From Sulfolobus acidocaldarius SUSAZ (GTDB lineage: Archaea > Thermoproteota > Thermoprotei_A > Sulfolobales > Sulfolobaceae), in assembly GCA_000508305.1 (NCBI GenBank), contig CP006977.1, forward strand, positions 62,001 to 126,000: a stretch of DNA of 64,000 bases, given 5' to 3'. Position numbers and translations under genes: made by a program. Shown here piece by piece: positions 30,914 to 34,264 of this stretch. The stretch's first letter is position 1. Every line of letters begins with the position of its first letter. The notes below the pieces were generated by a model. That model searched no databases. It worked only from the letters and a program-made list of their open reading frames with translations, and was not told the origin of the DNA.

Positions 30914-31743
30914 GATTAAAAGATCTTGCCCTATTTATCATAGCTCTAATATCAGTAATTTTCTTGTTTTTCCCGTTCTTTTGGGTTCTTAGTGACGTCG
31001 TAGTAAAAGGTATTCAGCCTATTTTGAACCAAGGTTTTAATTTTCTTATAAGTCCACCACCATTCACTAACGAGGGATTGGGAGGAATTGGAACAGTGCT
31101 TGAAGGTACTTTAATACTTGTGGTTGTTGCAGGATCTATATCTATTCCACTGGGCTTGATGACAGGTGTATTTTTAGGATTTTATCCGAATAACATAATT
31201 TCGAAAATAACTCAACAGCTGGTCGAATCGATTGTTGAATTTCCTACTGTGGTAATAGGAATTTCTGTGTTTGGAGTTCTAATACTTGATTTTGGATTTA
31301 AAATTAGTGTGGTAACAGGTTCTGTTGCATTAGCCATAATAATGCTACCTTATATTATAATGCAGATTAGTGATTCTATATATATACCTAGACAGATTTT
31401 AGAGGAGACATTATTCTCTTTAGGATTTAGTAGATCTAGAACTGTTCTATCTATAATTTCTGCTTCTAGAAGGGGTATCTTAACTGGTATATTATTGGGG
31501 TTAGCTAAAGGATTTGGTGAGTCTGCAGCTTTGTTGTTTACTGTGGCAACATCATTTAATTTATACTTTAGTGGTTTAGGAAACCCTGTAAGTGCTATAC
31601 CTGTTCTTATTTATTTTTATGCTCAAAGTCCCTATTCTAATTGGCAAGAAGTGGCCTGGGGTGCATCCCTAGTTTTAGCTATCATTGTCCTTAGTATATT
31701 TGTTATATCTCGTCTACTCATAAGAGGAGGATTGGGAAAATGA
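30901..31743 (+). CDS. pstA: Phosphate ABC transporter permease PstA
   Basis: 280 residues, intact. PstA features: SISIPLGLMTGVFLGFYP, VESIVEFPTVVIGISVFGVLI, DSIYIPRQILEETLFSLGFSRSRTVLSII (docking loop, from about residue 159) and GLAKGFGESAALLFTVATS. Overlaps pstC by 13 bases and pstB by four (ATGA), so the operon was once translationally coupled. Confidence 0.9.
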   Translation: MDKMRLKDLALFIIALISVIFLFFPFFWVLSDVVVKGIQPILNQGFNFLISPPPFTNEGLGGIGTVLEGTLILVVVAGSISIPLGLMTGVFLGFYPNNIISKITQQLVESIVEFPTVVIGISVFGVLILDFGFKISVVTGSVALAIIMLPYIIMQISDSIYIPRQILEETLFSLGFSRSRTVLSIISASRRGILTGILLGLAKGFGESAALLFTVATSFNLYFSGLGNPVSAIPVLIYFYAQSPYSNWQEVAWGASLVLAIIVLSIFVISRLLIRGGLGK

Positions 31744-32013
31744 ATGATTCTGTGTTTGAAATATCTAAATTAAATGTATGGTTAAATGGCAAACATGTTT
31801 TGAAGGAAATAGATGAGGTCAGGATAACTAAGAATTCAGTGTTTTCCATAATGGGTCCTTCTGGCTCAGGTAAATCTACATTGTTAAAGACCTTAAACAG
31901 ATTGATAGAATTAAATAATAATGTCAAAATAGAGGGTGAAATTTACAAAATAACGAAAGCCTCGCCCTTTATGGCGGGGATGTAGATTTAGAAGAAGGAA
32001 AAACCAGCCATTT

Positions 32014-33225
32014 ATGGTTAGTAAAAGTTTTTTAAACTACTTGTTCATTCATGCTCTTGTGAGTAGTCAGGTTAAGGGGAGCAACTCTAAGCTCCCTCAT
32101 GAGGGAATCGAGATCCAATCAACAGTCACGTTTAGGATCTCCCCCTCAGCCGGACTACTCTACCTAGTTTCGCGATACGGCAAAGCACTCGATTTCGTAA
32201 TGGATTGGTTAAAGAAGAATAAGCCAGCGAAGAATATTGTAAAGCAAATACATCACGCCGTTTATCAACAGTTAAGAGAGAAGTTTAATTTACCCGGGAG
32301 AATTGCTCAAGATTGTTATAGGAACGCTGTCACAATCTACAATGGTTGGAGGAAAAATCCTAAGCAAGGTAATTTTCCAAAAATTAAGCGCTTCTCAGTG
32401 TGGTTAACGCATAGTCTGTCATATAGACTTGATCTTGAGAAAATGAAAGTTAACATAACTTCTGTTGGTGATCTTTCCATTATTGGTTATCCTAGAAACT
32501 ATGCCTTGTATAAGGATTGGGAAATCAGGGAGGCTAGACTGAAGATAGTAAACGACAAGGTATTCCTTAAAGTGACTTTTAGGAAGGTAACTCAACCACC
32601 CGTAGCGTCTGATGGTGTTGCTGTTGACGTTAACATGGAGAATCTCACTGTAGGCAATGATAAAGAACATGTTATTATATCAACACGTCTTGATGATGCT
32701 AAACACTACAAGTCGTTAGCAGAAGGACTTCAGAAAAAGTATGGTAATAAGGTAAACACAGTTAAGAGGATACGCGAGAGGTACCTTTCTTTTCATAGGA
32801 AAGCCAAACGTGTCCTAGAGGATTTTGCAAAGAAAGCGGGAAAATGGGTAGTTGATATAGCTAAAATGTATAATGCGTCAGCAATCTTTATTGAGGATTT
32901 AAACAACATGATAAAGAATGTTGATAAGTTAGCCAAACCATTTCACGATAAATTGTATTTAATGCAGTATCGTCGTGTTCAATACTGGATTGAGTGGCAA
33001 GCGATAAAAAGTGGACTAAAGGTTGTTAAAGTTCCCGCGTTTTATACTTCTACTCGTTGTCCGAAATGTAAAGGTGAAATGAAGGAATATGCGTATAGGC
33101 AATTTAGGTGTGTTTTATGTGGTTATGAGGATGATCGTGATGTTATTGCAGTTATGAATCTTTATGGGAGGGGTTCTCTGAGCCTCTTGACTGCTGGGCA
33201 AGTGCGGGTCTCGACAGAGTCCTAA
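32014..33225 (+). CDS. tnpB: TnpB RNA-guided nuclease of IS605 family
   Basis: 403 residues. RuvC-like triad is complete: Asp205 (VAVDVNMEN), Glu294 (IFIEDLNN) and Asp376 (DDRDVIAVMNL). Zinc ribbon Cys349, Cys352, Cys366, Cys369. A recognition domain of helices lies at about 55-130. TnpB uses an RNA made from the element's right end to cut DNA next to a short motif, favouring retention of the element. The conserved region begins about residue 32 (IEIQSTVTFRI), so TTG 32041 or GTG 32059 are alternative starts. All key residues are intact. Confidence 0.93.
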   Translation: MVSKSFLNYLFIHALVSSQVKGSNSKLPHEGIEIQSTVTFRISPSAGLLYLVSRYGKALDFVMDWLKKNKPAKNIVKQIHHAVYQQLREKFNLPGRIAQDCYRNAVTIYNGWRKNPKQGNFPKIKRFSVWLTHSLSYRLDLEKMKVNITSVGDLSIIGYPRNYALYKDWEIREARLKIVNDKVFLKVTFRKVTQPPVASDGVAVDVNMENLTVGNDKEHVIISTRLDDAKHYKSLAEGLQKKYGNKVNTVKRIRERYLSFHRKAKRVLEDFAKKAGKWVVDIAKMYNASAIFIEDLNNMIKNVDKLAKPFHDKLYLMQYRRVQYWIEWQAIKSGLKVVKVPAFYTSTRCPKCKGEMKEYAYRQFRCVLCGYEDDRDVIAVMNLYGRGSLSLLTAGQVRVSTES

Positions 33226-33265
33226 TGCCCGGAACCCTCGCCCTTTAGGGCGGGGAGGAAGTCAG
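33190..33265 (+). ncRNA. Probable omega-RNA 3' scaffold at the right end of the TnpB element
   Basis: In IS605 elements the guide RNA overlaps the tnpB 3' end and finishes at the right end, with the adjacent host DNA as guide. Here the GC-rich end of tnpB and 40 bases after it contain GGGCA/TGCCC (33198 and 33228 area) and the terminal CCTCGCCCT/AGGGCGGGG hairpin. The guide would be the pstB sequence from 33266 (TTCATGGGGAATAAT...). The 5' boundary is unknown. Confidence 0.5.
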
Positions 33266-33802
33266 TTCATGGGGAATAATATTTTCGAGATGGATCAAAC
33301 CAAGCTTAGAAGAGAGGTTGGAATGGTATTTCAGCAACCAAATCCATTTCCTCATATGAGTATATACGATAATATTGCTTATCCAGTCAAGGTTTTAGGC
33401 ATAGCTAAGAAGAAAGAGGAGATAGACAAGATAGTCCTAAGTTCTCTCAAAAAAGTTAATTTATATGAAGAAGTAAAAGATAGATTAAAAGCTAAAGCGT
33501 CTGATCTTTCAGGAGGGCAACAGCAAAGATTAGTAATTGCAAGGTCTTTAGCACTTAGACCTAAGGTTATACTAATGGACGAACCAACATCAATGATCGA
33601 TGTAGTAGGTGCAAGAAAAATTGAAGAGTTAATACTTGAGCTAAAAAAGGAAATTACAATAATTATTGTTACGCATACACCTCAAATGGCAAAAAGGATA
33701 TCTGATTATGTATGTTTTATTTATGATGGTAAGGTGGTGGAGTGGGGGTCAAAATATGAGATATTTGATAACCCTAGAAATGAGCTCACAGTAAAATACG
33801 TT

Positions 33803-34264
33803 CTAGGTAAATTCGGTTAAACTTTTACATTCTCCTCCAAAGAATTCTTTCCAGTCTGAGCTAAAGTAAAACTTACAATCCACTTTTTCTCCTGCTAAGA
33901 CTTTAGGTAACCATATCTTATCATCTTGCCACATTTCCTCGTATGGTGGTTCTTTGAGCCACATGGGTATAGCTTCCTCACTTGCCCTTGGAATTCCCTC
34001 AAATTCTGTTACAAGATATACATGCATTAAATATTTTTCCTGTCCGTAGAGAAATTCTATTTTACCTACTCTGTTGGACGAGAGAACTCTGATCCCCAAC
34101 TCCTCATAAAGCTCTCTTTCGACGCATTCTCTGGGTGTTTCTATGTTCCTTAATTTTCCTCCAGCTGAATTTATATAACCTGTTCCAATCCCTCTTAACT
34201 TTCTAATTAAGAGTAAAAAATCTCCTCTTTTTACTACTCCTAGACATGTCTCCATGAATCTCAC
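33803..34264 (-). CDS. Nudix hydrolase (8-oxo-dGTPase/MutT-like)
   Basis: 153 residues. Nudix box [23 protein letters not shown] (from about residue 36) fits GX5EX7REUXEEXGU exactly. [18 protein letters not shown] and the C-terminal [21 protein letters not shown] resemble MTH1-type 2-hydroxy/8-oxo-purine nucleotide hydrolases. Likely cleans oxidised nucleotides. It overlaps fumC by four bases upstream and the 3' end of broken pstB by 18 bases convergently. Confidence 0.87.

Follow-up and report, generated by a model that had tools for sequence, protein, structure and literature searches.

How did the phosphate-transport gene pstB come to be split in two at this locus, and could it be made whole again? 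The window, a stretch of 64,000 nucleotides (G000:C1:62001-126000) of a single-contig, 2.06-Mb genome of a hot-spring archaeon, carries a pst operon whose pstB is interrupted, 3' of TTTAC, by a TnpB-only element of the IS200/IS605 kind (IS1341-type), 1,319 bases long (Table 1). A sequence-only reading of this DNA had set the ends of the element at 31947 and 33265, and these bounds are exact to the base, since other genomic copies share the start and end bases. Three further full-length copies, about 90% identical, and one 5'-only copy were found elsewhere in the genome, read as stretches around the matches; all lie 3' of TTAC, and the full-length ones finish at GTCAG amid unrelated flanks. The element has subterminal hairpins at both ends, has neither terminal inverted repeats nor a target duplication, and inserts 3' of a fixed tetra- or pentanucleotide motif, here TTAC. 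The insertion is an ordinary TnpB-only IS200/IS605 event of known kind.

Table 1. Features of the interrupted pst operon, its element and a related 43-bp hairpin, in window coordinates
Feature	Position	Strand	Remarks
pstS	28802..30034	+	apparent frameshifts around 29036 and 29555; one 410-aa homologue is covered by frames 3, 1 and 3 in turn
pstC	30038..30913	+	open frame
pstA	30901..31743	+	open frame
pstB 5' part, with Walker A	31740..31946	+	first 69 codons; matches intact PstB homologues over residues 1-69
Target/TAM TTTAC	31942..31946	+	abuts left end; TTAC before full-length copies and before 33/37 minis
Whole TnpB-only IS200/IS605-type element	31947..33265	+	ends identical in three other genomic copies, ~90% identity
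Left guide tetranucleotide AAAG	31956..31959	+	foot of left hairpin; from sequence, equals IS608 GL
Left-end hairpin CCTCGCCCTTTATGGCGGGGA	31960..31980	+	
tnpB, probable GTG start	32059..33225	+	RuvC D205/E294/D376 and zinc ribbon (403-aa numbering)
Predicted omega-RNA (reRNA) scaffold	33165..33265	+	overlaps tnpB end and right end; conservation, covariation
Putative right guide tetranucleotide GAAC	33232..33235	+	from sequence, by analogy with IS608 GAAT (PMC5934647)
Right-end hairpin CCTCGCCCTTTAGGGCGGGGA	33236..33256	+	near-identical direct repeat of left hairpin
Right cleavage site TCAG	33262..33265	+	in all full copies; IS608 has TCAA
Predicted guide segment, pstB sequence TTCATGGGGAATAATATTTT	33266..33285	+	after the ISDra2 reRNA layout (PMC8612924)
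pstB 3' part (Q-loop, signature, Walker B)	33266..33820	+	
43-bp mini of same element family	54520..54562	-	clean empty site in sister

Joining base 31946 to base 33266 gives an open PstB of 253 aa, which aligns with six intact homologues with no gap across the junction (EIYFMGNNIF versus, for example, KVLYFGKDIF). The earlier proposal that such a join restores the frame with just this sequence is thereby borne out, as is its division of the gene, Walker A falling in the 5' part and the Q-loop in the 3' part. Stops and frameshifts are absent from both halves. The empty site so reconstructed rests on homologues about 50-63% identical, the nearest named one coming from a Sulfolobales archaeon; the region is missing in the sister genome (G001), which is of the same genus and was the best comparison genome, with 91-93% DNA identity in the flanks of the window. 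The closest genomes belong to a single family, taken here to be the Sulfolobaceae.

The explanation that we consider highly probable is that the TnpB-only element entered pstB 3' of TTTAC by a TnpA-type single-strand transposition, with TnpA provided in trans from a source since lost from the genome, and that pstB was split in this way with neither gain nor loss of host bases. The right end would specify an omega-RNA whose guide is taken from pstB, and TnpB would then cut any element-free allele (TTTAC|TTCATGGGGAATAATA), favouring re-copying of the element; in consequence pstB would stay broken, in an operon that was probably already dispensable. The sequences themselves show the ends, the target, the intact nuclease frame, the selection on TnpB and the RNA-like conservation; expression, RNA-guided cleavage and mobilisation in trans, with the enzyme responsible, are the parts of this explanation that we infer.

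Might the insertion instead be a reversible switch, precise excision restoring both pstB and phosphate uptake, as the sequence-only reading had proposed? The exactness of the ends means that a perfect excision would give the pstB frame back, and both halves remain free of stops and frameshifts. However, Y1_Tnp (TnpA) was detected neither in the genome itself nor in the 93%-identical sister, and no serine recombinase that might mobilise the element was found in the genome. An active TnpB would, moreover, target the restored TTTAC|TTCATGGGG junction and cut the site again. When these elements decay here, what commonly remains is a 43-bp hairpin, and a remnant of that length, not being divisible by 3, would leave pstB frameshifted. 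The operon, too, speaks against the switch: pstS reads as twice frameshifted, though assembly error is possible, and most of the operon is deleted in the sister. The restoration proposal is thus unsupported, and we give the switch only a slim chance.

The state of the operon merits a closer look. The frameshifts of pstS may reflect decay or assembly error; assembly indels are possible because 6 of the 82 sister ORFs examined are also split into several frames in the present assembly. One of the six is a nearby KefB-like gene (window 25772-27416), which is intact at 549 aa in the sister and is here split by one extra T; this split too is either real or an assembly error. Collinearity between the sister and the window extends as far as 28782 and resumes at about 33528; the sister lacks the remaining pst operon and retains a decayed 3' end of pstB. 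This decayed end, with the collinear flanks, implies that the operon is ancestral in the genus and was deleted in the sister. Among the relatives searched, only two other family genomes have a PstB of more than 60% identity, and a PHO4/Pit-like permease is open in both the genome and its sister. Since most relatives lack the operon and a Pit-like permease is present, the operon was probably dispensable before the insertion, and it is not obvious that phosphate uptake would return if only pstB were repaired.

Is the nuclease itself intact? The RuvC triad D205, E294 and D376 and the zinc-ribbon cysteines 349, 352, 366 and 369 are all present, so that the claim of an intact catalytic triad and zinc ribbon holds residue for residue. 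Although the frame is also open from ATG 32014, which gives the 403-aa reading, translation more likely starts naturally at GTG 32059 (388 aa), because two other copies are open only from near there, with ATG. Among Pfam families, Cas12f1-like_TNB matches at 3.2e-18, above the cut-off, and OrfB_IS605 at 3.4e-4, below it; there are PDB matches to TnpB as well, and the match to ISDra2 TnpB is weak (E 0.007). In the six pairs formed by the four full copies, dS in tnpB is 0.22-0.34 and dN 0.06-0.08, and the ratio of 0.19-0.32 implies that the protein has been under purifying selection. To judge from its sequence, TnpB may be an active nuclease. Active TnpBs are known in Sulfolobus islandicus, and TnpBs of this order work at 75 C in published studies (PMC11043419, PMC10640517). 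Relatives about 50% identical occur in Sulfolobales plasmids and viruses, which are possible vectors of the element.

The right end is the most conserved part of the element: in the alignment of full copies the final 60 columns are 99.2% identical, as against 79-98% elsewhere. A fold of this end over seven sequences has 30 pairs, 6 of them changed on both sides, so that conservation and covariation together describe an omega-RNA-like structure that runs up to the element boundary. No Rfam family, the omega-RNA families included, matched the element. On this pattern the right end probably encodes an omega-RNA, which would take its guide from the pstB sequence 3' of the element, that is, from base 33266 onward. 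A search of the genome for TTAC followed by the guide, with up to 3 mismatches, returned no off-site target, only the element's own right junction. The position of this guide region within a host operon would suit a domesticated TnpB, an RNA-guided regulator that has lost its role as a nuclease, but the RuvC triad is intact, and the other full copies lie at unrelated sites with no tie to host regulation, which makes domestication very improbable. That the 3' part of pstB is a separate gene and that no insertion ever happened can be dismissed as next to impossible: this part does have its own ATG at 33269, but it lacks a Walker A, it forms with the 5' part a single full-length PstB of homologue size, and the identical ends of the element copies and the gapless PstB alignment refute the idea.

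The comparative pattern is more informative than the pstB insertion itself. The genome has about 38 sites with a 43-bp mini, in which TTAC is followed by the left tip, AAAG, the hairpin and the right tip (GGAAGTCAG or close variants); both tips are thus joined through a single palindrome, the structure of a terminal-only PATE. To judge from the sequences, a mini is what would be left if the two nearly identical hairpins of a full element, left and right, recombined. Among 37 minis there are 30 distinct sequences, and one bears a right tip from a different TnpB family, which suggests that minis arose more than once. For fifteen minis the sister has an empty site that can be aligned, and two are common to both genomes. 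No site carries a full element in one genome and a mini in the other, in a comparison of two genomes about 7% diverged in which most sites are empty in the sister; minis likely derive from collapse in place. Judged by the rule for IS608, a mini still has its left guide and misses the right one, and it is therefore expected to be immobile by itself; the authors of the Haloquadratum study left the mobility of terminal-only elements open (PMC3119063). If TnpB cut empty sites, might these sites have mutated in the target motif or the seed to escape? At the sister's empty sites the mismatch rate in the four TTAC bases is 0.22, as against 0.08-0.20 in flanking bins, no clear signal of escape.

Several other arrangements were seen. 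From G000:C1 1599296 leftwards, on the minus strand, there is an alternative collapse product of about 100 bp, in which a second left-end hairpin is joined to the right end. The flanks of the mini at G000:C1 1386650 are inverted in the sister, at G001:C1 1440102-1440512, which suggests a local inversion. An element of about 350 bp that lacks TnpB occurs at about 51554-51901 of the window and at G000:C1 1674330-1674713, as well as in family genomes L153, L155, L200, L205 and L206; its right end is of the IS605 type, it contains a structured sequence that is conserved, and it looks like a non-autonomous element with an omega-RNA-like segment inside.

Some insertions are accompanied by loss of DNA. 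DNA that the sister has is missing on G000:C1 at two full copies (109 bp at 1492385, 110 bp at 892770) and at two minis (267 bp at 2016696, 624 bp at 2017061), and in three of these four cases TTAC stands in the sister just 5' of the right flank; at 892770 the bases are CTAC. A fifth deletion, of 65 bp at 2043655, has no TTAC. Since TTAC occupies only 0.57% of positions, chance is a very poor explanation for its presence at three of five deletions. The deletions may stem from recombination between two insertions, or else a second TTAC replaced the normal left site of the transposase; no published description of such a TTAC-to-TTAC replacement was found in the literature searched. One might go further, and propose that full elements and 43-bp remnants were inserted after the split from the sister with no detectable TnpA, at times replacing TTAC-to-TTAC DNA, a proposal that we regard as rather doubtful. 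If the second TTAC was cleaved instead of the normal left site, IS200/IS605 elements would have a new adjacent-deletion reaction, and if TnpA was never supplied, a mobilising route that is as yet unknown would be at work. The recent insertions, the remnants with a solo hairpin and the deletions from one TTAC to another, all in genomes where no TnpA was found, bear on the mobility of TnpB-only elements, a question raised in PMC3119063. The pstB locus itself is a base-exact natural case of a TnpB predicted to target the unbroken allele of the very gene that its element has disrupted, and it makes the TnpB 'homing' model directly testable in a thermophile.

How does the system compare with those already known? 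Like other IS1341-type elements of the Sulfolobales, the element carries TnpB alone, has subterminal hairpins with no inverted repeats or target duplication, and lies 3' of a fixed AT-rich motif; the motif here is TTAC/TTTAC, whereas in S. islandicus solo tnpB elements use TTTAT and those with tnpA and tnpB use TTTAA (PMC10640517). It shares with IS608 of Helicobacter pylori the target TTAC and the left guide AAAG (PMC5934647), but it lacks tnpA, and its right guide and cleavage site are GAAC/TCAG rather than the GAAT/TCAA of IS608, a change that, by analogy, may be read as compensatory. With ISDra2 TnpB and with TnpB1 and TnpB7 of S. islandicus it has in common the RuvC triad and zinc ribbon and, as predicted from the DNA, a right-end RNA with a guide from the flank and an insertion motif that is also the target motif; the protein match to ISDra2 TnpB is weak, however, and the activity of the present TnpB is predicted. 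The terminal-only PATE of Haloquadratum walsbyi, of 52 bp, is described as the product of repeat-mediated deletion of the core of IS605/TnpB elements (PMC3119063). The minis resemble it in that deletion of the core between near-terminal palindromes would leave such a tiny element with a single palindrome, and differ from it in being 43 bp rather than 52 bp long and in belonging to the Sulfolobaceae rather than to haloarchaea.
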